Positions 4,244 to 20,786 of a stretch of 64,000 bases of DNA are shown here, in pieces. The DNA comes from Pseudomonadota bacterium (GTDB lineage: Bacteria > Pseudomonadota > Gammaproteobacteria > Steroidobacterales > Steroidobacteraceae). The notes under the pieces are model-generated. The model saw nothing but the letters and a program-made list of their open reading frames with translations. It was not told the origin of the DNA and did no database searches. Every line of letters starts with the position of its first letter. Position 1 is the stretch's first letter. A program made the translations under genes and the position numbers. Where the stretch lies: the NCBI GenBank assembly GCA_021805865.1, contig JAJZDX010000005.1, positions 1 through 64,000 on the forward strand. Reading direction: 5' to 3'.

Positions 4244-5071
4244 GTGCGCACCGCATTCCTCGCTCTGCTGCTCGTCAACCTGATGTTCCTGGCCTGGGCC
4301 GAATGGATCGACGTGCGTGTATCACCGCCCAACGCGATCGCGGGCCTGCCGCGCTTGCGGCTGGCTGAGCACGCGCGCCCGAGCGATGCGGCTTCCTCCT
4401 CCACGCCGGCATCCGGTGTGTCTGCCGCGACAGGCGATGGGGAGCCGGGTGCGGAAGGAGCCGGGGACGGCCCCGCATCGGCCCGGCTCACGGAGGCGCC
4501 ACAAGCTGTGAGTGCGGCGCTCGCCGCGCAATGCGTATCGGTCGGACCGTTCGACAGCACCACCGACGCCACGCAGGCCTTACAGCAGCTGGGTGGCCAG
4601 AGCCTCTCGCCGAGGCAGCGTGTCGCACAGAGCCGGCCCACGCGCTGGTACTGGGTTTACCTGCCGAGCCCGGGCAGCGCCTCGCGGGCGAACCAGCTGT
4701 TGCAGCGGCTGAGGGCAGACGGCATCGATGGGGCGCAGCCCATGAGCGCGAACGGCAAGCGGCCGATCTCGCTCGGCATGTTCCAGGATCCGCAGCTCGC
4801 GGCCCGCCAGCAGCAATTGGCGCAGCACAAGGGTTTCCACCCCGTCCTGGCTGATCGTCTGGTCTCCCAGCCGGTCTACTGGCTGGATCTCTGGGTGCCC
4901 GGGGGCGCGCAGGCGCTGCCGCTCGAGGCGCTGAAGACCGGTGCGGGGTCGAACATCGGGACGGAGCCCTGCCCGGCCGGCGAGACCCCGCCCTGGCGTG
5001 TGCCCCAGGAGGCTTCTCCCGGTCTGCCCGCCCCCCGGGCCTCGGTCAGCGCCGCGCCGCCGAGTCCGTAG
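4244..5071 (+). CDS. SPOR-domain membrane protein
   Basis: Protein of 275 residues with one N-terminal membrane segment (FLALLLVNLMFLAWAEW). A low-complexity Ala/Ser/Pro/Gly linker follows (~35-90), then a SPOR-like region (~98-205) containing CVSVGPF, YWVYLPS and SLGMF, and finally a Pro-rich tail. SPOR domains bind peptidoglycan lacking stem peptides at the division septum. A SPOR-domain gene at this place, between coaX and a tRNA operon, is common in gammaproteobacteria. The GTG start at 4244 begins the membrane segment directly; the gap from coaX is 52 nt. Confidence 0.85.
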   Translation: MRTAFLALLLVNLMFLAWAEWIDVRVSPPNAIAGLPRLRLAEHARPSDAASSSTPASGVSAATGDGEPGAEGAGDGPASARLTEAPQAVSAALAAQCVSVGPFDSTTDATQALQQLGGQSLSPRQRVAQSRPTRWYWVYLPSPGSASRANQLLQRLRADGIDGAQPMSANGKRPISLGMFQDPQLAARQQQLAQHKGFHPVLADRLVSQPVYWLDLWVPGGAQALPLEALKTGAGSNIGTEPCPAGETPPWRVPQEASPGLPAPRASVSAAPPSP

Positions 5072-5170
5072 AATTCTTGCGGATCCGGTGCTGCTTGCGT
5101 TACCCACTCACCGGAACCTCGCCGACACCGGTACAATCGGCGCCCGTTTCGCACGGGGGCAGCCTTCTGG

Positions 5171-5245
5171 GCCGGCTTAGCTCAGCGGTAGAGCAGCGGT
5201 TTTGTAAACCGTTGGTCGGGGGTTCAAGTCCCTCAGCCGGCACCA
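5171..5245 (+). tRNA. thrU: tRNA-Thr (anticodon UGU)
   Basis: A 75-nt cloverleaf: acceptor GCCGGCT pairs with AGCCGGC and CCA is encoded. The D arm is AGCTCAGCGGTAGAGC, the anticodon loop TTTGTAA gives anticodon TGT (codon ACA), and the T arm GGGGGTTCAAGTCCCTC is canonical. A TACAAT box at 5132-5137 could be the -10 element of its promoter. In E. coli the same tRNA (thrU) follows birA and coaA and leads thrU-tyrU-glyT-thrT-tufB. Here the partner tRNAs and tuf do not follow; an integrase does. Confidence 0.97.
5205..5245 (+). other. Probable attachment site (att) in the tRNA-Thr 3' half
   Basis: The anticodon-to-CCA half of tRNA-Thr is intact and an integrase gene starts 148 nt downstream in the same direction, the usual arrangement at the left end of a tRNA-borne island. 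GC content drops sharply just after the CCA (CTCCAATATTATCAATAG), marking imported DNA. No second copy of this tRNA segment was found in the window, so the other end of the element is not located. Confidence 0.6.
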
Positions 5246-5300
5246 ACTAACTCCAATATTATCAATAGAATAGCACTCAAGCAAGAGCGCGCCGCATTTC

Positions 5301-5319
5301 CTGGCACACTTCTGGCACA
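5301..5319 (+). repeat. Tandem direct repeat CTGGCACA near att
   Basis: CTGGCACA occurs at 5301-5308 and again at 5312-5319, an 11-bp period (one helical turn), in the AT-rich stretch between tRNA and integrase. Arm-type binding sites of tyrosine integrases often look like this. The role is inferred from place and spacing only. Confidence 0.4.
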
Positions 5320-5392
5320 ATTGATTGCCAATTCCAGGGTTATAGTTGCATCAAGGCGTGCGCCCTTGTGCGCCGCGACACGAGGATGGGCG

Positions 5393-6523
5393 ATGGCGAC
5401 AATCCGGGAGCGCGCCAAAGTCGATGGCACACGCGCTTTCCACGTCCAGGTTCGCATGGCGGGATTTCCAGCGCGCACGGCAAGCTTTCCGACGAAGCGC
5501 CAAGCCGAGCGCTGGGCAAAGACGATCGAGGCCGAGATGATCGAAGGGCGGCACTTCCGCTCGGTTGAGGCGCGCCGCCGGACGCTTGCTGAGGCGATCG
5601 ACCGCTACCTCGATCACGAGGCTCCAAAGCTACGAGATGGCCGCATGCACAGGTCCACATTGCCCTGGTGGCGGGAGAAGCTCGGGCGCTTCAAGCTTTG
5701 TGAAATCACGCCCGCGCTCATCGCCGAATATCGCAACAAGCTCGCCGCGGAAACGTACCGGCGAGCCCGGCCCGGCGCGAAGCACTCATCGCTGAACGCC
5801 GGTGAACAGGCGCGCGAATTCAAGCGCAAACCAAACACGGTCAACAACTACCTCGTGTCCATCGGCCGCGTTTTCAGCGTCGCCCGTCGGGAATGGCACT
5901 GGATCACGCATAACCCCATGGAGGGAGTCGCCAAGCTCTCCGCCGGTCCCGGGCGCGTGCGCTACCTATCCGAAGACGAGCGCCAACGGCTGCTGACCGA
6001 GACGGCCAAAAACCAGCAGCTCCACACCCTGGCCGTCCTGGCGCTCTCAACCGCCGCTCGGGCGGGCGAGCTCATGAACCTGAGCTGGCGCGATGTGGAT
6101 CTGAAGGACGGCCGCGTCCTGCTGCGCGAGACCAAGAACACGCAGCCGCGGGCGATATGGGTCCACTACGAGGCTCTCCGATTGCTGAAGGAGTACGGCA
6201 AGATTCGCCGGCTCGATGACGACCATGTATTCCTGGGTGCCACGCCCGGAACCCGCTATGACTATCACACGCCATTCAAAGCCGCGTGCGCCGCCGCCGG
6301 CGTGGCCGACTTCCGCTTTCATGACCTTCGACACTCCGCTGCCACCTACCTCGCCCGGGAGGGAGCGACGGAACAGCAGCTGAAGGCCATCGGCGGATGG
6401 AAGTCCAATGTCGTCAGCCGCTACGTGCACCTGGCCGCCGAAGACGCAAAGGCCGTTCTTGAGCGGATGAACGCCAAGATCCTCGGCAGTGACGTGAATC
6501 GAGGGGGGCTGTCACAGGAATGA
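5393..6523 (+). CDS. Tyrosine-type site-specific integrase of the island
   Basis: Integrase of 376 residues that would catalyse insertion and excision of the island at the adjacent tRNA-Thr. An N-terminal arm-binding part (1-60) is followed by a core-binding SAM-like region (~65-175) and a catalytic domain (~188-360). The full catalytic set is visible: R223 in TAARAGEL, K248 in the beta-hairpin, H310 and R313 in HDLRH, W336 and nucleophile Y344 in SRYVHL. The protein therefore looks active. The start at 5393 is preceded by GAGGA at good spacing and gives MATIRERAKVDG. Longer upstream starts enter the att region and are unlikely. Confidence 0.93.
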   Translation: MATIRERAKVDGTRAFHVQVRMAGFPARTASFPTKRQAERWAKTIEAEMIEGRHFRSVEARRRTLAEAIDRYLDHEAPKLRDGRMHRSTLPWWREKLGRFKLCEITPALIAEYRNKLAAETYRRARPGAKHSSLNAGEQAREFKRKPNTVNNYLVSIGRVFSVARREWHWITHNPMEGVAKLSAGPGRVRYLSEDERQRLLTETAKNQQLHTLAVLALSTAARAGELMNLSWRDVDLKDGRVLLRETKNTQPRAIWVHYEALRLLKEYGKIRRLDDDHVFLGATPGTRYDYHTPFKAACAAAGVADFRFHDLRHSAATYLAREGATEQQLKAIGGWKSNVVSRYVHLAAEDAKAVLERMNAKILGSDVNRGGLSQE

Positions 6524-6850
6524 GTCATCATGACCCAGCATCTGCGGAACGCGTTCATTGCCCTCTCCGGAGCGGAAGTCGCGGCGTTGATGCCGCGGAG
6601 GAAGTGACGTTCTCATGGACGTCAGATTGCTCGTCCATCGCTCCACGCAGTCTTGTAACCAACACGTGTGAGTCGTAGGCTTTGCGTCCTTGAAACGCTG
6701 CACGATAGCGGGCCGCGTATTGTGGCTGCGAGTCACGGACGAGTACGCCCGAGCGCTATTTGGGACGAGGCGCGCGGTTAACCTGGGGTGGAACTACTGC
6801 AGTGACCCGATGCAAATGTGGAGTGTCCAGAAGATCACCGGGAGCGCAGC
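6524..6850. other. Intergenic stretch inside the island, no gene seen
   Basis: 327 bp between the integrase and the RhuM-Fic gene. Short open frames exist on both strands but none shows a recognisable domain, signal or ribosome site. It may hold the promoter of the next gene. Confidence 0.5.
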
Positions 6851-7855
6851 ATGACTCGTGAGACACCGAGCGGCGAGGTTATCGTCTACGAGACCCCCGA
6901 CGGGGGGGTGCGCGTAGAGGTTCGGCTGGACCGCGATACGGTATGGCTCGCGCAGCGCCAGATGGCGGATTTGTTCGATACGTCGACGGACAATATCAGC
7001 CTACACCTGAAAAATATCTTTGCCGACAAGGAATTAAAGGAGAGCGCAACTACCGAGGATTTCTCGGTGGTTCAAGCCGAGGGGGGGCGGCGAGTCCGGC
7101 GCCAAGTCAAGTACTTCAGCCTGGACGCCGTTATCTCGGTCGGCTATCGGGTGAATTCCCGTCGCGCGGTGCGGTTTCGCCAGTGGGCGACCGCAACGCT
7201 CCGCGAGCACTTGGTGCAGGGCTACACCGTAAATCGCCAGCGCCTCGAGCAGAACGCGCGCGAGCTGGAATCCGCCCTTGCCCTGGTGCGCAAGGCGGCC
7301 TCTGGCGAGGCACTGACCGGGGATCAGGGTCGCGGCCTGGTGGATATCATTGCCCGTTACACGCAGACCTTTCTGCTGCTGCAACGCTATGACAAGGGGC
7401 TGCTGGTCGAGCCTGAAGGTGTGCCCGGCGGAAAACTCCCGAAAGTGATTGAAGCGCGTCGGGCCATCGGCGAGCTCAAGATGGATCTGATGGCGCGCGG
7501 CGAGGTGACCGACCTGTTCGGGCGCGAGCGCGACGACGGACTCGCCGCCCTGCTCGGGAATCTGGATCAGACCGTGTTCGGCGCACCAGCTTATCCGACC
7601 GTCGAATCGAAAGCCGCGCACCTGCTGTATTTCGTGATCAAGAATCATCCCTTCTCCGACGGAAACAAGCGCATCGGCTCATTCTTGTTCATCGAATTCC
7701 TGCATCGAAACGACTGCCTGGTGCGCCGGGGCCAACCGGTGGTCAATGATGTCGGATTGGCTGCACTGGCCCTGCTGGTGGCCGAGTCGTCGCCCAAAGA
7801 CAAGGACGTGATGATCCGGCTCGTGATGAACATGTTGGTCGATACTGCGGCATAA
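6851..7855 (+). CDS. RhuM-family protein with C-terminal Fic/Doc domain
   Basis: 334 residues. The N-terminal part (~5-125) is the RhuM / virulence-protein module, with VWLAQRQMADLFDTS, SLHLKNIF and KYFSLDAVISVGYRV. A helical linker follows, then a Fic/Doc domain with active-site loop HPFSDGNKR at residues 266-274. This is the Doc-like form with Lys where AMP-transferring Fic proteins carry Gly-Arg; Doc uses that form to phosphorylate EF-Tu. A nucleotide- or phosphate-transferring toxin or regulator is plausible, but the target is unknown. No separate antitoxin is visible next to it. The ATG at 6851 is chosen because GGAG lies just upstream; a GTG at 6818 is less likely. The gene converges on the primase-helicase gene. 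Confidence 0.88.
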   Translation: MTRETPSGEVIVYETPDGGVRVEVRLDRDTVWLAQRQMADLFDTSTDNISLHLKNIFADKELKESATTEDFSVVQAEGGRRVRRQVKYFSLDAVISVGYRVNSRRAVRFRQWATATLREHLVQGYTVNRQRLEQNARELESALALVRKAASGEALTGDQGRGLVDIIARYTQTFLLLQRYDKGLLVEPEGVPGGKLPKVIEARRAIGELKMDLMARGEVTDLFGRERDDGLAALLGNLDQTVFGAPAYPTVESKAAHLLYFVIKNHPFSDGNKRIGSFLFIEFLHRNDCLVRRGQPVVNDVGLAALALLVAESSPKDKDVMIRLVMNMLVDTAA

Positions 7856-7956
7856 ACCGAACTTCGGGATCGTCGCCGGCGAGGCCGCGCAGCAGGTTCG
7901 CGAGACGCTTGAGCGCGAACGGGGATATCTCGTCCGATAACGTATGGGAATCCCAT

Positions 7957-10785
7957 TCAAGGCGAATCGGAATCCAGCCGTCGGCGGGCGCGTTCGATCG
8001 CGCCCATGATGGTGTCGAGCACCCGATCCAGTGCTTTGCCGACGTCCTCGGCGAGAAAGCGAAGCACCAGATAACCGTTCTGTTGCAGCAACTGGTCCTT
8101 GCGTCGGTCATGGCGGTACGTATCGGTGTCCGAGAGACGCGCGGTGCGATCCAACTCGATCGCCAGGCGCGCATCGGCGCAGAGCAAGGCAACCTCGAGG
8201 GTGCCGGCAGCATCGAGCGTAATAGGTAGCCTCGCGTTGATGCGAAAACGCCCCCGGGTCTCGGGCAGGGTCTCGAGGCGCCGGAAGAGGAAGGTCTCGA
8301 TGTTGCGTGTGCGGTCGACGTTTTCGGTATCCTCGGGAGCTCGTGTCGTCTGGAGGAAGAGACTGGCGAGAGGCGTATCCACCCCATCGCGAACGAGCCG
8401 CTGGATGCTGCCCGCGTAGTCCCGTTTCCAGAGCGGGTCCGAGGGCAGGGCGACCTCCGCGGGCCAACCGTCAATCGCGCTGGCCGGCAACAGGATCGTG
8501 TAGCCGAGGGCCCCGTAGCCCTGGCATCGCCGGTTGAACATCCGGGCCAGCATCGGCACGCCGAGATCGGCATAGTCATAGATCCGCACTTCACGCTTCC
8601 CGTCATGCAGTCGATGCAGTCTCCCGGCGTATTGCGCGACCGTCCCTCGCCAGGACACCGGGAGCGTCAGGAAGAGCGTGTCGAGACGCGCATCGTCGAA
8701 TCCCTCTCCGATGTGCTTGCCGGTCGCCATCACCACGCGCGCCTCCTTGGCGGGAATCGAGGCGAGATGTTCCCTCACCGCCTGCCGCTGCTTCTTGCCC
8801 ATTCCGGCCCGCAGGACGATGAGGTGGCGCACATGGGGGGATAGAGCCTGCGCCAGGCGATCGAGATGATCGTTGCGCTCGGTCAGCACGAGCGGTGAGC
8901 GTCCCGCTTGCACGGATTCGATGACATCGTCGCTGATACGGCGTGTCCGCGCTTCATCCTCGACCAATGCCTGATAGAGCGCTTGGAATTCGAGCCGCTT
9001 GTCCGCCTCCGGGGGCCTCAATGATCGGAACGCGGTGGGTTGTACGAACACGGTGTGCCTGAACGGGCGAGTGGCGGCCTGAGCGCGCGCATTGACGCGG
9101 TAGCGGATCGGTCCGCACTGCATGAAGACGATTGGATGGTGGCCGTCCTTGCGCGTGACCGTGGCGGAAAGGCCGACGACGAATCGGGCCTTGGCTTCAC
9201 GGGCAACCTTCTCGAAGCTCTTCGCCGAGAGGTGATGACATTCGTCGACGATGAGCTGTCCGTAGCCAGCTACACAGTCGTCGACCACGCCCTTGCGGAA
9301 GAGGGTCTGGATCATGGCTACGTCCAGGAGCCCATTGGATCGTCGCCGGCCACCGCCGATCCGGCCGATGTCTTGGGCAGGCACGTCGAGAAAGGCAGAG
9401 AGCCGCTCGACCCACTGATCGAGCAGCGCCTCGCGGTGGACGAGCACCAGCGTGCTGACCGCGCGCTGGGCGATCAGCCAGGCGCCAATGACTGTTTTGC
9501 CGAAGGCCGTGGTGGCCGCCAGCACTCCCGTATCGTGCGCCAGCAGGGCGCGGGCGGCCGCCTTCTGTTCGGGCCGTAACTGCCCTTGAAAGGTGACATT
9601 CAGCGGCTGGCCGCGGCTGCGCTCGTCCCGCACCGTTGCGCCAATGCCCAGGTCATCGAGCAGCCGATGAATGTCTTCGAGGCAGCCTCTCGGAAGGCCG
9701 ATGTGATGCGGATGGTCTTCGGCGCACGCCACGATGCGCGACTTGCCGTAGGTCGACAGACGCATCGCTTGTGCCCGGTAGAACTCGGGATTCTGGAACG
9801 CCGCCAGGCGCAGCAGGCGGTTTCGTAGGCCGGGCTGCAGCCCCTCCTTGGCGATGTAGATCTGGTTGCCGAGCACCAGCTCCAGGGTTTGCGGCAACTC
9901 GCCCGTGATGGGCGGAGCTCTCAGCTGTCGCGAGGGCGGTGCGGTCCAAGGCTCGCCGTCATCCTCTTCCGGCGGCAGTCGTACCCCCAAGACTCGCCCC
10001 CGGCGCTCGGCGTCCCGGACAATCTCCTCGGCTTGCCGTCGCGCTACTCTGCGCACGGTGGCCAGGAAAGACCACTGGTCCGGCCAGGGCTCGAGCGCCT
10101 CGTCGAGAAAGACGCTGTTCGCATGTTGACGAGCCGCCTTCTGCAACGGAAGGGCGATCAGGTTGCCGAAGCCTCCCTGAGGCATCGTATCCTGATTCGG
10201 AAAGAGCCGGTCGTAGGAGTCCAGGCCCACATGGGGCCGCCGCTCCATGGTTTCGGTCAATACATGCGAGGCGAGCCGGCGCACGAGCGAGGCCGGCAGG
10301 GGCTCGTCGAAGAACAGCCACAGATGAGCGCCGTTTCCGGATCGAGACCGCTCGAGGGCGGCGGGAAGAGTCAGCCGACGGCAGGCTTCGAGACAGGCTG
10401 CTGCATCCTCACGCCAGCCGCCCTTGTCGAAATCGACGGCCACGAACCAACAGCTATCGTCGGGCAACAGAGGATAGAGCCCGGCGACGAAGGACTTGCC
10501 CTCGCCGTCCTCACCCGACAGATGCCGGCGGATGACTTCGTCAGTGACCGGCAGAAATCGACGGTGCGGGCACTCGGCGCACGCGATCCGCGGCTTCTCG
10601 CAGACCCCACGCACCCACTCGTTGGCGCAGGCCGGCGCGTAGCCGGTTTTGCCGCTCTTGCGACTCTCGAAGCGTCGTGCATACACATCCTCTCGGCCGC
10701 GGAACAGCGATCGGAACAGGCGAATCTTCTCCTCTACCGGGGCATGGTGATCGACGCGCAAAGCCCGCTCCGTCGAATCGCTCAC
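7957..10785 (-). CDS. Archaeo-eukaryotic primase - SF2 helicase - PD-(D/E)XK nuclease fusion (TOTE-type conflict protein)
   Basis: 942 residues with four parts in order. A Cys4 zinc site comes first (C53, C62, C69, C72). An archaeo-eukaryotic primase-like domain (~100-245) has the metal pair D118/D120 in VAVDFDK, GAHLW near 154 and GNLIALPLQ near 210. A superfamily-2 helicase has TAFGKT at 426-431, DECH at 514-517, SAT, and the arginine-finger motif AQYAGRLHR. The C-terminal domain (~860-935) resembles DUF559-type nucleases, with D871 and E877-x-D879 in ARLAIELD followed by GYLVLRF. Databases label the primase-helicase part as TOTE conflict system. The predicted job is sensing and cleaving invading nucleic acid. 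Its start overlaps the stop of the PIF1-like gene by 4 nt, so the two form one operon. Confidence 0.88.
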   Translation of the reverse strand: MSDSTERALRVDHHAPVEEKIRLFRSLFRGREDVYARRFESRKSGKTGYAPACANEWVRGVCEKPRIACAECPHRRFLPVTDEVIRRHLSGEDGEGKSFVAGLYPLLPDDSCWFVAVDFDKGGWREDAAACLEACRRLTLPAALERSRSGNGAHLWLFFDEPLPASLVRRLASHVLTETMERRPHVGLDSYDRLFPNQDTMPQGGFGNLIALPLQKAARQHANSVFLDEALEPWPDQWSFLATVRRVARRQAEEIVRDAERRGRVLGVRLPPEEDDGEPWTAPPSRQLRAPPITGELPQTLELVLGNQIYIAKEGLQPGLRNRLLRLAAFQNPEFYRAQAMRLSTYGKSRIVACAEDHPHHIGLPRGCLEDIHRLLDDLGIGATVRDERSRGQPLNVTFQGQLRPEQKAAARALLAHDTGVLAATTAFGKTVIGAWLIAQRAVSTLVLVHREALLDQWVERLSAFLDVPAQDIGRIGGGRRRSNGLLDVAMIQTLFRKGVVDDCVAGYGQLIVDECHHLSAKSFEKVAREAKARFVVGLSATVTRKDGHHPIVFMQCGPIRYRVNARAQAATRPFRHTVFVQPTAFRSLRPPEADKRLEFQALYQALVEDEARTRRISDDVIESVQAGRSPLVLTERNDHLDRLAQALSPHVRHLIVLRAGMGKKQRQAVREHLASIPAKEARVVMATGKHIGEGFDDARLDTLFLTLPVSWRGTVAQYAGRLHRLHDGKREVRIYDYADLGVPMLARMFNRRCQGYGALGYTILLPASAIDGWPAEVALPSDPLWKRDYAGSIQRLVRDGVDTPLASLFLQTTRAPEDTENVDRTRNIETFLFRRLETLPETRGRFRINARLPITLDAAGTLEVALLCADARLAIELDRTARLSDTDTYRHDRRKDQLLQQNGYLVLRFLAEDVGKALDRVLDTIMGAIERARRRLDSDSP

Positions 10786-12989
10786 GCACGCTTCCTGTCG
10801 GCTGCTGCACGGATCCGTGACCAGTGGGCCACGATCATGCGCAGGTCGTTGTAATCGAAGTGGTCGCCCGTGCCACTGCGGATCGCCGTCAGGCTCGCGT
10901 CCTCGTGTGTCTCGAGGAAAGTCATGACCGCGCTGATCATGTCGGCGGGAAGCACCTCATGGACCTCGATCTCGCCGCTTACGATCAAGCGAGCGAGGTG
11001 GCTCTTGATCGTACCCACGGTGAGACTGCGAAGCGCGGCGATCTCCCCGGGCGTCTTGCGCGCGCAATGCAGGCGAAGCGTTTCCCGGACACTCGCCCCC
11101 CTTTCCATGCGACCTCGGCTTGCGGCGGTGGCCGGGTCGGTCTCCGCGCTGCGCTCTGGTCCTTGCCGCCTATGGAGGGGAGTACCGCTGTAGAGGCTTC
11201 GATCGAGGAGTTGCGCGCCGTATAACGCCTCGATCTTGTGCCAGCAGGCTCGCTCGAGGGCCTCCACGTGAGCGAGGTAGCGCTTGAGCTTCTTCTTGCC
11301 GCGGAGCGCGCCGATGTGCTGACGCGCCGGTGCGAGGATCTCCAGGGCGAGCCGCCCGGTGAAGTATTCGATGGCCTTTCCGCACCGCTCCGCGAGCACT
11401 GGGAGGCCGTTCGCCACGCCGCCGGCCTCTTCGGTCAGGCGGCACAGCTGGCGTCGGAATTTCTCCGCCGTTTCTTCGATCTCCGTCACCCCTTGCGCGA
11501 TGCGGTGCTGCAGCGCGACGGTCGCCCCTGTATCCGGGAGGCTCGCGGTGGCGGTGATCCGCTGCCGCCATTCGCCCAGGTGAGCCGACAGTCCCGAGAA
11601 GGAGAACAGCCGCCGCAGGAGATGACCAGCGTACTCGGCCTTTTCCGTCTCGAGCACGCGCAGCAGCCCCTCCGCGGCGTGATGCGAAGCGCTGAACGCA
11701 TCGATGCGCGGGTCCTCGCGTAAGGCGGCGGGGGTGATCAGCGAGCGCAGAATCATCCCCTCTAGCGAGCGGCAACGGCTGAGCGCCACGTACACCTGTC
11801 CTGCGGCGAACGAGCGTCCGGCATCCACGACCACCTTGTCCAAGGTCAGTCCCTGGCTCTTGTGGATGGTGATGGCCCAGGCGAGTCGCAGCGGGTACTG
11901 GCTGAAGGTGCCGAGGAGCTTTCTCTCGACCTTGCCGGTGTCTTCGTCGAGCCCGTAGCCGATGTTCTCCCAGATTTCCTGATGCAGCGTGTAGTCCGCT
12001 CCGGAGTCGCGGAACGCGACTGTGATCTCGGCGCCACGGATCCGCCTCACGATGGCGAGCTTGCCGTTGTAGTAGGCCCCTCCCTCGGTGTCGTTGCGGA
12101 TGAACATGACCTGTGCGCCGACTTTGATCTCGAGTACTCGATCGCAGGGATAGAGCGCTTCCGGGAATTCACCGTCGATCTCGGCCGCAAAGGCATGCAC
12201 TCTGTCGGGGAGCGAAGAGAGCGCCGACGCGTTGACGCTGTCGGCCTGGTGGTTGTGGGTGGTCAGGAGGACAAAGCCCGGCTCCTGCGGCTTGAAGTGC
12301 GGGTCGTAACGCTCCCGAAGCAGCCGCTCGTCGTGCGGATCGAGCCGGCGATGTCGGATGTGCTCGAGGAGCGAGAGAAAGCGCGCATCGCGCTGACGAT
12401 AGACCGTCTGCAGCTCGATGCGCGCCGCATCCAGCTTAGGCCACACGAGAGCGTCGAAGAAGTAGGGACTGCGGTAGTAGTGCTCCAGGACAGCCCATTC
12501 GGCTTCCCTCGCCACTGGCGGCAGCTGATGGATGTCCCCGATGAGGACCACCTGCACATCGCCGAACGGCTGTCGGATGCCTCGCACTTTGCGCAACGTG
12601 AGGTCGATCGCATCGAGGGTATCGCAGCGCACCATGCTGATCTCGTCGATGATGAGCAGGTCGAGTTCGCGAAGCACTCGCAGCTTCTCCGCGCGCAGGC
12701 GCAGATTCTCAGTCAGCAGCCGGCGGTTCGTGGCGATGCCGCGATCCACGGGATCATCGGTCGGCACGAAGCAGGTGAGTGGCAGGCCGAACATGGAATG
12801 CAGGGTGACACCGCCCGCGTTGACTGCCGCGACGCCGGTGGGCGCCACGACCACGATGTTTTTCTGAGGGGCCTGCACGAGCTTGCGCAACAAGGTCGTC
12901 TTGCCGGTGCCGGCCCGCCCGGTCACGAAGCAGTGTTTGCGGGTGTGCAGGGCGAACTGCTCGGCCAGCTCGAATTCGAGGTTGCTCAT
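10782..12989 (-). CDS. PIF1-like SF1 helicase with C-terminal helix-turn-helix
   Basis: 735 residues. The N-terminal two thirds is a PIF1/RecD2-like 5'-3' DNA helicase: Walker A GRAGTGKT at 24-31, Walker B IIDEIS around 113-118, GDIHQLPPV, the UvrD-type motif TIHKSQGLTLDKVVVD and YVALSRCR. A helical middle region follows. A C-terminal helix-turn-helix (~633-675, with TPGEIAALRSLTVGTIKSHL) resembles the HTH at the end of some RecQ and YpbB-like proteins. The start is the ATG at 12989, just before the helicase fold; an open frame runs 109 codons further upstream but that part looks non-coding. It is the first gene of the operon with the primase-helicase-nuclease and is divergent from the SNF2 gene. 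Confidence 0.88.
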   Translation of the reverse strand: MSNLEFELAEQFALHTRKHCFVTGRAGTGKTTLLRKLVQAPQKNIVVVAPTGVAAVNAGGVTLHSMFGLPLTCFVPTDDPVDRGIATNRRLLTENLRLRAEKLRVLRELDLLIIDEISMVRCDTLDAIDLTLRKVRGIRQPFGDVQVVLIGDIHQLPPVAREAEWAVLEHYYRSPYFFDALVWPKLDAARIELQTVYRQRDARFLSLLEHIRHRRLDPHDERLLRERYDPHFKPQEPGFVLLTTHNHQADSVNASALSSLPDRVHAFAAEIDGEFPEALYPCDRVLEIKVGAQVMFIRNDTEGGAYYNGKLAIVRRIRGAEITVAFRDSGADYTLHQEIWENIGYGLDEDTGKVERKLLGTFSQYPLRLAWAITIHKSQGLTLDKVVVDAGRSFAAGQVYVALSRCRSLEGMILRSLITPAALREDPRIDAFSASHHAAEGLLRVLETEKAEYAGHLLRRLFSFSGLSAHLGEWRQRITATASLPDTGATVALQHRIAQGVTEIEETAEKFRRQLCRLTEEAGGVANGLPVLAERCGKAIEYFTGRLALEILAPARQHIGALRGKKKLKRYLAHVEALERACWHKIEALYGAQLLDRSLYSGTPLHRRQGPERSAETDPATAASRGRMERGASVRETLRLHCARKTPGEIAALRSLTVGTIKSHLARLIVSGEIEVHEVLPADMISAVMTFLETHEDASLTAIRSGTGDHFDYNDLRMIVAHWSRIRAAADRKRA

Positions 12990-13162
12990 GGGGATTCCGT
13001 CACAGGGTGCGCGGGCAAAGGGAGCCGCGATCGCCATTCCTCGATGCCGGCCAGCGCTCGCCCCTGGTGCGATTCTATATCTGTTTTCGGGTCGTCCCCG
13101 CGCCATGGGGCCGGGCAAACGGATACTATGGGCGCTCCCCAAATTCAGAGGCGCGGTTGGCA
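12990..13162. promoter_or_regulatory. Divergent promoter region of the helicase module
   Basis: The 173-bp gap between the PIF1-like gene (leftward) and the SNF2 gene (rightward) must carry the promoters of both arms. Clear -35/-10 pairs or inverted operators could not be picked out by eye; the region holds TTCTATATCTG near 13073, which may be part of a promoter. Confidence 0.45.
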
Positions 13163-15751
13163 ATGGCGAGTAATGCGGATTCGCGGGCGCGACACCGACG
13201 TCGCTCCCACCAGGCGGCGCGAGGTCCCAAGCTCTCTCACTTGCGTCGCCCAAGTGGCATGGCGGTCGAGGAATGGCAGCGGGGTCTGCGGCGCCAATTC
13301 GGCCGCACGCAGCCATTCAAGTGGAAGAACCTCGGCACCGAGCCCATCTTTTCCGAGTTCGCGGTGGAGAATCCCCAGAGCGGCAGCCGCTACCGAGTGG
13401 CGATCCGCGGAGTCCGGCCTGGGGAGAACTTCTGCTCCTGTCCGGACTTCTCCACCAACGATCTCGGCACTTGCAAGCACATCGAGTTCGTTCTCGCCCG
13501 TCTCGAGCGTAAGCGGGGCGGCCAGCGGGCGCTCGCGCGGGGGTTCAAGCCCCGCTACAGCGAGGTCTACCTGCAGTATGGCGCGGAGCGGCATGTGTGG
13601 TTTCGCGCGGGCCTCGATTGTCCGCCGCCGCTGACGCGGCGCGCGGCACGACTGTTTCGCGGGCCTCCCGCTGGAGTGCTGCCCGCCGGGCAGAGGAACG
13701 CACTGGAGAGCTTCCTCGCGGAAGCCCGGCGTCGTGACCACGAAGTGCGCTGCTACGAGGACGTGCTCGGCCTCATCGCGCAGATCCGCGATGCGGAGGA
13801 GCGGCGACGGATCATCGACAGTGCCTATCCCGAGGGTAGCGCGAGTCCCGCTCTGCGCAAGCTATTGAAGGCCGAGCTCTATCCCTACCAGGCGGATGGC
13901 GCGCTGTTCGCTGTCCGGGCCGGCCGCTGTTTGATTGGGGACGAGATGGGTCTCGGCAAGACCATCCAGGCGATCGCGGCGGCGGAGCTCTTTGCGCGGC
14001 ACTTCGGCGCCGAGCGGGTGCTCATCGTCTGTCCGACCTCGCTGAAGCACCAGTGGCAGCGGGAATTCGCCCGCTTCACGGATCGGCGGTGCCAGGTCAT
14101 CGGCGGCTTGCGCGCCTCGCGGGAGGCACAGTACGCAGAGCAGTCCTTTTGCAAGATCACCAACTACGATGTCCTGTCGAAGGATCTCGATCTCATCGGA
14201 CGCTGGTCGCCGGATGTCGTCGTCGTCGACGAGGCGCAGCGGGTCAAGAACTGGAGCACGGTCGCCGCGCGCGCCTTGAAGCGCATCGAGACGCCGTACG
14301 CCATCGTGCTGACCGGTACGCCGCTTGAGAATCGGCTCGAAGAGCTCGTCTCCATCGTGCAATTCGTGGATCGCTATCGCCTGGGTCCCACGTGGCGGCT
14401 GCGTCATGAGCACCAGACCGTGGATGAGGCAGGCCGCGTCATCGGCTACCGCGGACTCGATCGCATTGGCAAGACGCTGGAGCCCGTCCTGCTGCGCCGT
14501 CGCAAGGCCGAGGTGCTCTCGCAGCTTCCGCCGCGGATGGACAAGACTCTCTTCGTCGAGATGACTCAGGAGCAAATGCGTCACCACGAGGAGAATGCGG
14601 AGACGGTCGATCGTATCGTGAGCCGCTGGCGCAAGACCGGATTTCTCTCGGACGCCGACCAGCGCCGCCTCACCTGTGCGCTGCAGAACATGAGGATGTC
14701 CTGCAACAGCACGTATCTTCTCGACAAACGTACCGATTACGGCGCGAAGACCGACGAGCTCGCAACGATTCTCGAGGAGCTCTTCGAGCGTCCCGAGGCC
14801 AAGGCCGTGGTTTTCAGCTCCTGGATCGCGACTCACGAGCTCATCATCCGTCGACTGAAGAGAAGGCGCTGGGGTCACGTGCTCTTCCATGGCGGCGTAC
14901 CGAGTACGCAGCGGGGCGCTCTGGTCGACCGCTTCCGCGAGGATCCCGACTGTCGGGTGTTCCTGTCGACGGACGCAGGTGGCGTGGGCCTCAATCTGCA
15001 GGATGCCGCTTCCACGGTCATCAACATGGATCTGCCGTGGAACCCCGCCGTGCTCGAGCAGCGCATCGGCCGGGTCCACCGCCTGGGACAGGCGCATGGC
15101 GTCAATGTTGTCAACTTCGTGGCCGAGGGAACGATCGAGCAGCGGATGCTCTCGCTGCTCGCCTTCAAGAAGTCGCTCTTTGCGGGCGTACTGGATGGCG
15201 GCGACAGCGAGGTCTTCCTCGGTGGGACGCGGCTGTCGAAGTTCATGGAGAGCGTGGAGGCGGTTACCCGGATCGCCAGTGCCGAAGCTCCGCCGACACC
15301 AGTACCCGAGGCGTTCTCTGGACGGCGCAAGAGCCAACCGGGCAGCACTGCGCACTCCGACGCCGATGCCGCCGCCTCGAGACCCTCCAATACGCTGGCT
15401 CCTGCAGTCGAGGGACAGGCCGTCGCGGCAACTCTGGGCACGAACGGGGCTCCCCCGGGGGCATCGGCCTCGGAACGCCTGACCGGGGAACCAGAGCCCG
15501 GGGCAACCCCGGGGCCGGCGCAAAATCCGTGGACGCCGCTGCTCCAAGCCGGTCTCGAACTCGCTCAGGTACTGTCGGCGGCTTCGAATGGGAGCTCCGT
15601 CGCGGCGCCGGCGTCAAGCGCAATGTCTTCATGGGTCGAGAAAGACACGCGGACCGGGCGCCAATACCTCAGACTTCCCCTTCCGGACCCGGGATCGGTG
15701 CAGGCACTCGCCACGGCCCTCTCGAAGCTCATGGAAAGCATTGCGAGATGA
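13163..15751 (+). CDS. SWIM zinc finger - SNF2-family ATPase
   Basis: 862 residues. A basic N-terminus is followed by a SWIM zinc finger (C91, C93, C104, H106 in FCSCPDF...GTCKH). The SNF2/RapA-type ATPase has DEMGLGKT near 260, DEAQ box VVDEAQRVKNW near 356 and TGTPLENR. A second RecA-like lobe contains STDAGGVGLNLQ and QRIGRVHRLGQ. A ~200-residue Pro/Ala/Gly-rich, disordered-looking C-terminus ends the protein. SNF2 enzymes translocate on double-stranded DNA and remodel protein-DNA complexes; several bacterial ones act in phage defence. ATG 13163 is preferred over longer frames, and a start at 13259 is also possible. It is divergent from the two helicase genes. Confidence 0.88.
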   Translation: MASNADSRARHRRRSHQAARGPKLSHLRRPSGMAVEEWQRGLRRQFGRTQPFKWKNLGTEPIFSEFAVENPQSGSRYRVAIRGVRPGENFCSCPDFSTNDLGTCKHIEFVLARLERKRGGQRALARGFKPRYSEVYLQYGAERHVWFRAGLDCPPPLTRRAARLFRGPPAGVLPAGQRNALESFLAEARRRDHEVRCYEDVLGLIAQIRDAEERRRIIDSAYPEGSASPALRKLLKAELYPYQADGALFAVRAGRCLIGDEMGLGKTIQAIAAAELFARHFGAERVLIVCPTSLKHQWQREFARFTDRRCQVIGGLRASREAQYAEQSFCKITNYDVLSKDLDLIGRWSPDVVVVDEAQRVKNWSTVAARALKRIETPYAIVLTGTPLENRLEELVSIVQFVDRYRLGPTWRLRHEHQTVDEAGRVIGYRGLDRIGKTLEPVLLRRRKAEVLSQLPPRMDKTLFVEMTQEQMRHHEENAETVDRIVSRWRKTGFLSDADQRRLTCALQNMRMSCNSTYLLDKRTDYGAKTDELATILEELFERPEAKAVVFSSWIATHELIIRRLKRRRWGHVLFHGGVPSTQRGALVDRFREDPDCRVFLSTDAGGVGLNLQDAASTVINMDLPWNPAVLEQRIGRVHRLGQAHGVNVVNFVAEGTIEQRMLSLLAFKKSLFAGVLDGGDSEVFLGGTRLSKFMESVEAVTRIASAEAPPTPVPEAFSGRRKSQPGSTAHSDADAAASRPSNTLAPAVEGQAVAATLGTNGAPPGASASERLTGEPEPGATPGPAQNPWTPLLQAGLELAQVLSAASNGSSVAAPASSAMSSWVEKDTRTGRQYLRLPLPDPGSVQALATALSKLMESIAR

Positions 15752-16055
15752 TCTCGGATGTAAGGCCGCTGGGGTGAGTCCACTGGCCTGCTCATCCACG
15801 CATCGGGCGTTCGCCGCTTCGCTACAGCTACCGCAGCCCGTACGCGAGGCGCAACGCGATTCGTTGGAGTACGTCGACCAGCTTGTCGTCATTGAGGGCG
15901 CGGTGAAATTGTGGTTCCTTGGGCAACGCTCCCTGCGCGCGCTCGTTCAGTACGACCGCGCGGGCGTGCCCGTTCCTCGATGAGCGGTATTGGAAGCCTT
16001 GAACGTCTGGATAGGCTTTTCACACCACTGACGGGGGGCGGCGCTTCCGGGCGGT
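15752..16055. other. Gap at the distal side of the helicase module
   Basis: 304 bp. The only coding-like signal is on the minus strand at about 15835-15950, a short frame reading KEPQFHRALNDDKLVDVLQR and ending at a stop; an in-frame stop and an apparent frameshift cut it off upstream. It may be the tail of a lost gene, but the family was not recognised. Confidence 0.35.
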
Positions 16056-16337
16056 GTGCACGTGGTCGCGCTCGGTTTCGGCAAGGCGGCGCCGGGACGG
16101 CGCTATCCGGCGCTGTATGCGCTCGCGCGGCAGCGACATTTTCTCGCGATCTGGCGCTCGGTGGATATCGGCCGACTCTGGCAGCGGCTGAACGGCAGGC
16201 GTCACGTGTACGGCCAGCGCCTCAGCTGCGTCACCGGTGACCCCCGCATCTTCGGGCGTGTCTATGTCGGGACCAATGGTCGCGGCATCCTCTACGGCGA
16301 TCCGCGCAGACCGAGAGCGCCGCGTACGCTCAGATGA
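16056..16337 (+). pseudogene. C-terminal fragment of a GH74-type xyloglucanase
   Basis: The frame encodes FGKAAPGRRYPALY and, 50 residues on, TGDPRIFGRVYVGTNGRG followed by ILYGDP. These are the closing signatures of family 74 beta-propeller glucanases, which cleave xyloglucan. An intact enzyme has roughly 700-800 residues; here only the last ~85 remain and nothing upstream continues the fold. The middle has lost the usual repeat sequence, so there has been further decay. It marks a broken end where other DNA was replaced. Confidence 0.65.
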
Positions 16338-16560
16338 GCGGCTCTGCGCCGCGAAATCGGCAGTAGTCGATGCGGTCGAGGCCGTCTTCGCCGCGGCAGA
16401 GGATGCCAGTGAACGTGTGCTGCCGGTGCCGATCCTCCGGCAGGTATTCGCGCCGCGCCATCCGCGTCTGGCCGGTTGTCTCGTCGATGCCGCTGAATGT
16501 CAGGATCGGGAACGCGACGTGCGCGACGATGCGCTGAGCAATACAGATCATCGTGGCCAT
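16330..16560 (-). pseudogene. Coding-like remnant of unknown family
   Basis: A 76-codon frame with protein-like composition (starts MATMICIAQRIVAHVAFPIL, contains RREYLPEDRHRQHTFTG and ends FRGAEPLI). It lacks a clear ribosome site, and plausible upstream coding sequence continues in the same frame without a start. It reads as the C-terminal piece of a larger gene. The family was not recognised. Confidence 0.3.
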
Positions 16561-16623
16561 GAGCCGCGCGGATCCCTGCGGGATCGTCTCCGTCCCCCAT
16601 GAGTCCGGGCTGCATCCGCTACG

Positions 16624-17520
16624 CTATCCTTTGCGATAGCGCAGGGTGTCGACGATCAGCGCAAAGGCAGGCGATGACTGTCGGCGGCTGGGAAAGTAGA
16701 GATGGTAACCCGGCCAGGGCGGGGACCACTCCTGGAGCACCCACACGAGTTGGCCCTTTGAAAGATAAGGCCGCGCGAGATCCTCCGGAATGTAGGCGAG
16801 GCCATACCCATCGAGGGCCGCATCGCGAACCTGGAAGATGCTGTTGAAGGTGAGTTGCCCATCGACGCGGACTTTCAGCTCTCGGCCGTCGCGCTCGAAA
16901 TCCCATGCCCATAAGCCGCCGTAGGTCGGCAAGCGCAGATTGATGCATGAGTGCGCCACCAGATCCTGTGGCGTCTTGGGGATTGCGTGTGTGGCGAAAT
17001 AAGACTTCGTGCCGACCACGGCGAAGCGAACGTCGGGGCTGATCCGGATCGACACCATGTCCTTGGCGACCTGCTCGCCCAGGCGCACGCCGGCGTCGTA
17101 CTGCTGAGCGGCAATATCGATCAGGCCGCCTTCGGCGTTGATCTCGAGCTTCACATCCGGATGTCGCGCCAGGACCCCGGCGAGCTTCGGCCACAGGATG
17201 GTCGTCGCGGAATGATCTCCGGCCGTGATGCGGATTGTTCCGGCGGGCTTGCGTCGAAGGTCATTGAGGGCTGCAAGCTCCGCCTCGACCTCCTCGAAAC
17301 GGGGGCCGACGGTGCGCAGGAGCCGCTCGCCCGCCTCGGTCGGTGAGACGCTGCGTGTCGTGCGCGTCAGCAGTCGAATGCCGAGCCGCTCCTCGAGCCC
17401 CCGCATCGAGTGACTCAGTGCCGAGGGGGAGACGCCAAGCTGTGCTGCGGCCCGGGTAAAGCTCCTGTTGCGGGCGACCGCCAGGAACGCCTGGAGGTCG
17501 TTGAAGTTCTCGCGCGCCAT
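16624..17520 (-). CDS. LysR-family transcriptional regulator
   Basis: 298 residues. The N-terminal winged HTH (residues 5-65) has SFTRAAAQLGVSPSALSHSM, and a periplasmic-binding-protein-like effector domain fills ~92-295. The sequence resembles the YafC/DmlR-like subgroup that controls neighbouring oxidoreductases. It is divergent from the Zn-alcohol dehydrogenase gene, with a dyad directly upstream of its own start, so it very likely controls itself and the ADH-AKR genes. The inducer is unknown. Confidence 0.93.
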   Translation of the reverse strand: MARENFNDLQAFLAVARNRSFTRAAAQLGVSPSALSHSMRGLEERLGIRLLTRTTRSVSPTEAGERLLRTVGPRFEEVEAELAALNDLRRKPAGTIRITAGDHSATTILWPKLAGVLARHPDVKLEINAEGGLIDIAAQQYDAGVRLGEQVAKDMVSIRISPDVRFAVVGTKSYFATHAIPKTPQDLVAHSCINLRLPTYGGLWAWDFERDGRELKVRVDGQLTFNSIFQVRDAALDGYGLAYIPEDLARPYLSKGQLVWVLQEWSPPWPGYHLYFPSRRQSSPAFALIVDTLRYRKG

Positions 17521-17523
17521 TCA

Positions 17524-17536
17524 TGAGAGTTTCTCA
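17524..17536. promoter_or_regulatory. Probable LysR operator (TGAGA-N3-TCTCA)
   Basis: The perfect dyad TGAGA GTT TCTCA lies 3 nt upstream of the lysR start codon and 86 nt from the divergent ADH start. It fits the T-N11-A pattern of LysR boxes. Its position over the lysR leader suggests autorepression. Binding is inferred. Confidence 0.55.
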
Positions 17537-17621
17537 CAATTCCATGCGAATTCCACCCACTAATCCTTTTGCCGCCGAGGCCGTACATTGGCTGCCGGCA
17601 ACGACACCGAGGTAGACCACC

Positions 17622-20786
<3,165 letters not shown>

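Follow-up and report, generated by a model that had tools for sequence, protein, structure and literature searches.

A TOTE protein, a SWIM-SNF2 ATPase and a PIF1-like helicase as a predicted defence cassette on a tRNA-Thr element of Steroidobacteraceae

Introduction

Why would three large nucleic-acid motors lie side by side behind an integrase? This question is raised by a 64,000-nucleotide stretch of DNA from a gammaproteobacterium of the family Steroidobacteraceae (assembly GCA_021805865.1, contig JAJZDX010000005.1, positions 1 to 64,000; the window). It encodes a TOTE protein with primase, helicase and nuclease parts, a PIF1-like helicase that ends in a helix-turn-helix (HTH), and a divergently transcribed SWIM-SNF2 ATPase. 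The original prediction, made from the sequence alone, saw in these genes a candidate three-part conflict or defence module in which SNF2 would scan, PIF1 signal and TOTE cut. Comparison with related genomes led us to a looser arrangement: the trio is probably a defence cassette carried by an element at tRNA-Thr, with TOTE as the predicted DNA-cutting effector, SWIM-SNF2 as a portable helper motor and PIF1 as an optional part. In the following, G000 denotes the window's own genome, other G numbers the relatives compared with it, and L numbers loci.

Results

Pfam matches agree with the original prediction on the coordinates, strands and domains of the three motors (Table 1). The TOTE protein scores 326.5 bits against AEP-TOTE (PF22548), far above the cut-off of 27, and continues in the same chain into a ResIII helicase (74 bits) and a DUF559 nuclease (33.1 bits, cut-off 20.6), as its earlier label implied. 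We take "TOTE conflict system" to be Pfam's name for this family, whose combination of AEP primase, SF2 helicase and nuclease in one chain the window protein shares. The primase motif DxD (D118 and D120) occurs in 100% of 75 aligned TOTE proteins, and H154 in all of a chosen 42. The helicase has its Walker A lysine K430 in 100% of the 75 rows and the Walker B residues D514 and E515 in all of the 42. The C-terminal nuclease has E864, E877, D879 and K896, presumably its active site, in 97–99% of the 75 and all of the 42. D118, K430 and E877, which had been singled out for mutation, are correctly numbered and conserved at 100, 100 and 99% in the 75 proteins and invariant in the 42. Rows of the VIA-align set cover the PrimPol part and residues 274–767. 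CRISPR-associated PrimPol (CAPP, 7nqd) is a different protein: the window TOTE reaches 84.6 of the 200 bits of the NCBIfam cut-off and has a fused helicase and nuclease, and positions 4900–18000 contain no CRISPR-like array or repeat family, so that both equivalog score and CRISPR context speak against membership. The NCBIfam score for XPB is likewise 59.6 of 610, and TOTE differs from XPB and from the XPB-Bax1 helicase-nuclease by its fused DUF559 nuclease and its additional primase.

The second protein matches PF05970 with 93.7 bits (cut-off 25.9) and carries a C-terminal HTH_40 domain (60 bits). Together with this match, its Walker A motif GRAGTGKT and Walker B motif DEISM, present in all four full-length copies, identify it as a PIF1 helicase. 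The third protein (PF00176, 148 bits) had been called a SWIM-SNF2 ATPase. Its SWIM match of 17.2 bits stays under the Pfam cut-off of 19.6, but the zinc ligands C91-x-C93...C104-x-H106, together with K266 and D356/E357 of the SNF2 core, are identical in 32 of 32 rows of a chosen alignment that includes the window, and by these residues the call holds. The core is of the duplex-DNA translocase type (1z63, Mot1, CSB, INO80) and is the same ATPase core as in ZorD (Zorya), DrmD (DISARM), DpdE (Dpd) and BrxH (BREX), the best PADLOC matches. Scores below the NCBIfam cut-offs for ZorD (129 of 1500), DrmD (158 of 610) and DpdE (129 of 500), with no NCBIfam match for BrxH, place the window SNF2 outside DISARM, Zorya and Dpd by their curated SNF2-subunit cut-offs, and its N-terminal SWIM part and its own C-terminal tail set it apart from all four proteins. 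The tail is conserved and follows a disordered linker (residues 705–786); structure is predicted at low confidence here. Within residues 705–862 (positions 15275–15751) the tail pattern W-x-E-x-D...TGR-x-YL-x-LP recurs in TOTE-linked, Wadjet-linked and lone proteins. We regard this tail as a candidate docking module.

The strongest argument for the trio as defence cargo comes from the slot that it occupies, as seen in two sister islands. When 96 relatives were searched for the integrase at a threshold of at least 86% identity, eight genomes, the window's own included, were positive, and the copies in the seven sister genomes are 86–92% identical. Seven of the eight integrases (window, L098, L102, L106, L150, L151, L152) directly follow tRNA-Thr, with the SPOR-domain gene and birA beyond. 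TOTE lies behind the integrase in four of the eight genomes (G000, G013, G022, G048). Two islands of the same genus are like the window in integrase and attachment (att) site and differ in cargo: PADLOC finds IetA (E 3e-75) and IetS (2e-35) in G042, where the integrase is 91% identical and follows tRNA-Thr, and a type IV methyl-directed restriction enzyme (mREase_IV, 2e-253), which we would liken to SauUSI, in G041, where the integrase is 86% identical. IetAS, type IV restriction and AbiE are established defence families. The islands of G028 and G037 end at the contig end within or after the RhuM-Fic gene, and none of these four genomes has a TOTE match anywhere at 1e-60. The cargo varies also in G022, where a two-gene AlbA/Schlafen-type cassette takes the RhuM-Fic position. 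The G041 stretch (L153, C54) lacks a tRNA gene but has the att core three times in succession, near 14890, 8167 and 5651. Integrase, a two-gene AlbA cassette and mREase_IV occupy the first interval, AbiEi/AbiEii the second, and beyond the third core lies a RES antitoxin gene (94% identical). Since these cores bound separate units, att-bounded defence units appear to accrete in tandem.

A further link to defence is provided by SNF2. Relatives 59–64% identical to the window's protein adjoin five type II Wadjet operons (JetABCD2) in the genus, those of G042, G048, G010, G028 and contig C27 of the window's own genome. JetA2–D2 of G042 were confirmed by PADLOC (C and D also by NCBIfam), and BLAST against these genes served to assign the Jet genes of the other genomes. 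In four operons the SNF2 start lies within the region of the jetD stop codon (ATGA in L104, L105 and L113, TGATG in L107); in G028 SNF2 stands upstream of jetA instead. The operon on C27 (L113, 2793–8809) ends in a truncated SNF2 gene (206 aa) overlapped by jetD; the product of this SNF2 gene is 59% identical to the window SNF2 and 74–78% to other Wadjet-linked ones. JetD2 was found in nine relatives, in five of which SNF2 is adjacent. No SNF2 of this kind is present at 1e-60 anywhere in the JetD2-bearing genomes G045, G084 and G006 (the G006 operon is cut by the contig end), and the Wadjet of G347, outside the family, has no adjacent SNF2. We compared JetB/C/D and SNF2 between two Wadjet lineages, in which the SNF2 pair of G028 and C27 overlaps too little to be scored. 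JetB/C/D are 38–48% identical, SNF2 74–79%; between G042 and G010 the values are 39–46% and 79%. Since SNF2 is far closer across the lineages than JetB/C/D, the gene has likely moved between them, and the simplest account of the sequences would be a transfer from one lineage to the other into the same operon place. An SNF2 gene in Wadjet operons is not described in the portions of the Wadjet literature available to us, and the accessible part of a 2023 review states that most Wadjet work so far has been on type I (PMC10586767).

To place these genes we surveyed 148 relatives for SNF2 at 1e-60 and obtained 14 positive genomes, 11 with the clade of the window and three with an outgroup (40–42% identical: G004, G040 and G059; these and the window's own C7 copy are left out of the 11). 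TOTE lies beside SNF2 in G000, G013, G022 and G029, PIF1 in G000, G013, G029 and G056, and Wadjet II in G042, G048, G010 and G028; the G011 contig is cut (4,994 bp). At least one of the three partners was thus found in nine of the 11 clade genomes. In the SNF2 tree, from which the C27 fragment was left out, the four Wadjet-linked copies form one clade (100/100) and the six closest to the window another (100/100). Viral contigs gave two weak matches. A plasmid origin of SNF2 was rejected, as 72,556 plasmid records gave no match at 1e-60. In G566 (L146, 5041–11776) 844 bp separate a clade SNF2 from a possible third type of partner, a DNA2-like AAA_11/AAA_12 helicase that has PD-(D/E)XK and RNase_H_2 parts. 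The deeper relative on C7 (L112, 5429–8041; 42%) shares its island with AbiEi/AbiEii genes and a gene resembling an integrase.

We then asked whether TOTE keeps these partners elsewhere. A scan of GTDB contigs found at least 567 TOTE relatives, and the best 80, from many phyla and including contigs of G022 and G029, were kept. Partners were sought in these 80 loci by tblastn at 1e-10. Flanks of at least 3 kb were available on both sides in 29 loci and on at least one side in 61, so that partner counts are lower bounds. An SNF2 at least 55% identical lies beside TOTE in three loci, L002 (which is G022), L007 and L075, and in the latter two it follows TOTE in the same direction after gaps of 35 and 127 nt. 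Weaker SNF2 matches are found in L058 (39%) and in L015 and L032 (31–33%). PIF1 of the window type is encoded in none of the 80 loci; a 124-residue match in L002 is an antisense overlap with SNF2. AbiE-type, Schlafen-AlbA, HsdM and McrC genes lie near TOTE in a few loci. Members of the family among these 80 thus lack a fixed partner, whereas TOTE of the window has PIF1-HTH and SWIM-SNF2 at its side on an integrative island. In a TOTE tree of 76 rows, made by a quick method without bootstrap, the window clade, L007 and L075 stand apart with SNF2-less relatives near each, and L060, the sister of L007, is SNF2-less with full flanks. Separate gains of SNF2 by TOTE would be the simpler reading of this tree.

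Closer to the window, a TOTE-like gene was found at 1e-60 in 17 of 148 relatives. Six of the matches span the nuclease part (G000, G013, G022, G029, G035 and G048, with those of G035, G048 and G029 in pieces or fragments), ten end at residue 734–783, and one is cut by a contig end (G083). SNF2 of the window clade adjoins four of the six nuclease-bearing TOTE genes and none of the ten shorter ones, counts that are not independent of descent. The cut gene of G083 (L117, 1570–6139; contig C82) has a 4-nt overlap with a McrC-like gene downstream of a ResIII-type restriction gene.

Full-length PIF1 orthologues were found in four of 217 family genomes (G000, G013, G029, G056), all divergent to SNF2 and three of them beside TOTE. 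Among 249 genomes of the phylum PIF1 was found at 1e-130 in the window's own genome only; six plasmid records, all Bacteroidales by genus name, match over 52–70% of its length, and viral contigs gave no locus. Six order-level matches (40–43%) were dropped, as they cover the helicase half only and lie among ordinary genes. The triad was seen, with its gene order unchanged, in G000, G013 and G029 only, three species that belong to one genus. In G029 the TOTE frame is interrupted, with its parts on two contigs, and PIF1 and SNF2 are open. G022 retains a 25-codon in-frame remnant of the two ends of the PIF1 gene between an open TOTE gene and an SNF2 gene open for the 500 codons visible before the contig end. 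G056 has PIF1, SNF2 and RES genes without this integrase and without adjacent TOTE; a nuclease-less TOTE relative lies on another contig. The Wadjet II genes of G056 come no closer to SNF2 than about 4 kb, the distance to jetA, with jetD 11 kb away. These states suggest that parts of the trio have been lost one by one. Judged from these gene contents, TOTE with SNF2 is the recurrent pair and PIF1 an apparently optional addition.

The genes themselves are tightly arranged. The overlap of the PIF1 and TOTE genes, GTGA, is 4 nt as first described and is the same in the sister genome G013. With starts at 12989 and 13163, PIF1 and SNF2 leave a gap of 173 bp. This is the length given earlier, but the shared promoter placed there is unsupported: a search for sigma-70-like promoters in the gap found none. 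Longer mechanical open reading frames of PIF1 and SNF2 overlap head to head and are unlikely to have the true starts. The ratio of nonsynonymous to synonymous divergence (dN/dS) against sister-species orthologues is 0.17–0.29 for TOTE, 0.27 for PIF1 and 0.14–0.17 for SNF2. Purifying selection on all three genes and the recurrence of their order in G013 and G029 confirm that the trio is not a chance arrangement. Its co-occurrence across genomes, proposed as a check, was found in three species of one genus and failed in the 80 best TOTE loci, where PIF1 is missing.

The element that carries the trio is best seen in G013 (L098), where integrase, RhuM-Fic, TOTE, PIF1, SNF2, a RES toxin (PF08808) and a presumed antitoxin follow in this order between a 49-bp direct repeat (4732–4780 and 16885–16933, spacing 12,153 bp). 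Integrase and direct repeats of the tRNA end identify an integrative element at a tRNA gene, and the right-end repeat is found in G029 (L099) as well, with one mismatch. The window keeps the left end only: DNA homology to the sister element extends to 16018, within the RES gene, and the att repeat does not recur in the 64 kb. With its right end lost, this copy is probably immobile. Directly after the right-end repeat of G013 begins a second, contig-cut copy of the integrase (L098, 16885–17490), so that tandem elements lie at one tRNA gene.

Five element genes have a synonymous divergence (pS) between species of 0.16–0.33, compared with 0.48–0.59 for four flanking host genes. Being closer between species than their host flanks, the element genes point to horizontal transfer after the species split, and their dN/dS of 0.12–0.29 against sister-species orthologues indicates that function has been maintained. 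A phage origin was rejected: only three of 50,697 phage records matched TOTE at 1e-20, all in the helicase part, and none matched its primase part.

Table 1. Coordinates of the features discussed (window positions unless a locus or residues are given).
Feature	Position	Strand or length	Remarks
tRNA-Thr (TGT)	5171-5245	+	integration site; ARAGORN, Rfam
att core	5201-5245	45 bp	element's left end; tRNA-Thr 3' part
Tyrosine integrase	5393-6523	+	PF00589; TTG open reading frame from 5321, likely start ATG 5393
RhuM-Fic fusion	6851-7855	+	cargo; PF13310 + PF02661; PADLOC candidate defence family PDC-S23, 438 bits
TOTE protein gene	7957-10785	-	942 aa
TOTE, Cys-rich stretch and PrimPol	residues 18-262		C53, C62, C69, C72 (zinc presumed)
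TOTE, XPB-like helicase	residues 298-767		with XPB N-terminal part
TOTE, DUF559 nuclease	residues 865-930
PIF1-like helicase	10782-12989	-	735 aa; C-terminal HTH_40
PIF1/SNF2 intergenic region	12990-13162	173 bp	divergent; starts from gene model and homologues
SWIM-SNF2 ATPase	13163-15751	+	862 aa
RES-domain toxin gene remnant	15831-16019	-	C-terminal 63 aa, 82% identical to G013 gene
TniB-TniQ operon with TOTE relative	L149 4793-10271		short gene overlaps

Synteny across relatives puts the integrase directly 3' of tRNA-Thr, adjoining genes that we take by their sequences to be birA, coaX and a SPOR-domain gene. Within its first 520 nucleotides the window runs from the 3' part of a 23S rRNA gene into 5S rRNA. 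Genes for an alcohol dehydrogenase and an aldo-keto reductase-like protein lie on the SNF2 side in the window (17622–20786), and 88% identical ones on the PIF1 side of the G056 locus (L101, 17435–19874).

Discussion

Taken together, a role in conflict or defence, as originally predicted, is the best reading of these genes, because the cargo slot of the island holds genes matching known defence systems in two sister islands and because SNF2 relatives adjoin Wadjet II operons. Within this reading the XPB-like motor of TOTE would bring the protein onto forks or gaps in the DNA of an invading replicon, where the PrimPol would prime on the strand laid bare and the C-terminal nuclease would cut. A chain of PrimPol, fork-engaging XPB-type motor and nuclease would indeed suit the attack of foreign DNA that is replicating or gapped. 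SNF2 may translocate on duplex DNA and give the effector access by displacing or remodelling the proteins bound there, and PIF1-HTH, dispensable, may add 5'-3' unwinding at the same substrate. In our reading SNF2 is an accessory translocase, portable between DNA-targeting defence systems: its partners are alike only in acting on DNA, and a general DNA-clearing or loading role would fit best. Type II Wadjet shares with the window a related SNF2 gene. Its effector is the SMC-Toprim complex, whereas that of the window island would be TOTE, and profile searches found no JetA2, JetB2, JetC2 or JetD2 among the five genes of 5171–16019. The bolder proposal that SWIM-SNF2 is a plug-in motor common to unrelated DNA-targeting immune systems, a fifth component of Wadjet II that has been exchanged among deeply diverged JetABCD operons, that TOTE recruited independently and that docks by its conserved C-terminal tail, is tentative, and we would sooner bet against it than for it.

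Several observations weigh against a defence cassette, and they are best considered with the alternatives that they favour. The genes might be unrelated passengers, stand-alone defence or repair genes gathered in one island without functional link. This is unlikely, yet it is the alternative that we take most seriously. TOTE has no conserved neighbour but SNF2, in six of the best 80 loci if distant SNF2 is counted; the other 74, whose flanks are often short, have no SNF2 match at 1e-10. The scattered links could also be what losses have left of an old one. SNF2 of the clade stands without recognised partner in G083, G334 and G249, TOTE is absent beside the G056 pair, and G022 keeps a mere remnant of PIF1. 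TOTE and PIF1 have a pS of 0.16–0.21, compared with 0.26–0.33 for integrase, RhuM-Fic and SNF2; such unequal divergence means that the parts have not strictly travelled together and would suit a separate exchange of the TOTE-PIF1 pair. Other defence genes of known type were seen in two sister islands only, and our literature search found neither a paper naming TOTE conflict systems nor one measuring defence activity of TOTE. What speaks for a functional link is that the same SNF2 clade stands beside TOTE at three places of the TOTE tree, twice co-directionally at short gaps (L007, L075), that SNF2 overlaps jetD in four Wadjet operons, and that all four full-length PIF1 genes are divergent to SNF2. 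The tightest link, an obligate three-protein system in which SNF2 senses, PIF1 signals through its HTH and TOTE cuts, is hardly credible. The gene order and 4-nt overlap shared by G000 and G013, the triad in G029 and purifying selection on all three genes would suit it, but the PIF1 remnant of G022 between open neighbours, the G056 pair without adjacent TOTE and the lack of such a PIF1 in the best 80 TOTE loci led us to reject it, and this part of the original prediction is unsupported.

The trio might also be a module that replicates or maintains the island itself, TOTE acting as the primase-helicase of an excised intermediate. TOTE relatives occur on 100 of 72,556 plasmid records, of which 43 are conjugative, and those without the nuclease part would suit a role in mobile elements. 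A nuclease-less relative closes a TniB-TniQ transposon operon on pTB1 of Sphingobium yanoikuyae (L149), a TOTE relative adjoins a relaxase in G049 (L116), and seven viral contigs hold TOTE relatives (L123, L118 and L119 were annotated), of which one, L123, reaches residue 942. We nevertheless consider such a module improbable. Four genomes with the same integrase (G042, G041, G028, G037) do without any TOTE match, and islands of two of them carry other cargo; none of the plasmid TOTE rows listed (the 25 best and a spread of 40 of the 100) extends past residue 775 into the nuclease part, which is retained in the island version; and SNF2 accompanies Wadjet elsewhere.

Returning to the defence cassette, what is new here is that additional motors accompany a TOTE protein on an island of defence cargo, and that SNF2 is exchangeable and shared with Wadjet II. 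G022 offers a natural loss of PIF1 that shows which part is omissible, and SNF2 becomes a concrete accessory-gene candidate for type II Wadjet. If SNF2 is a shared helper, one exchangeable translocase would link an SMC-Toprim complex with a primase-helicase-nuclease, and it would become a testable question what both systems need, for example the clearing of DNA-bound protein.

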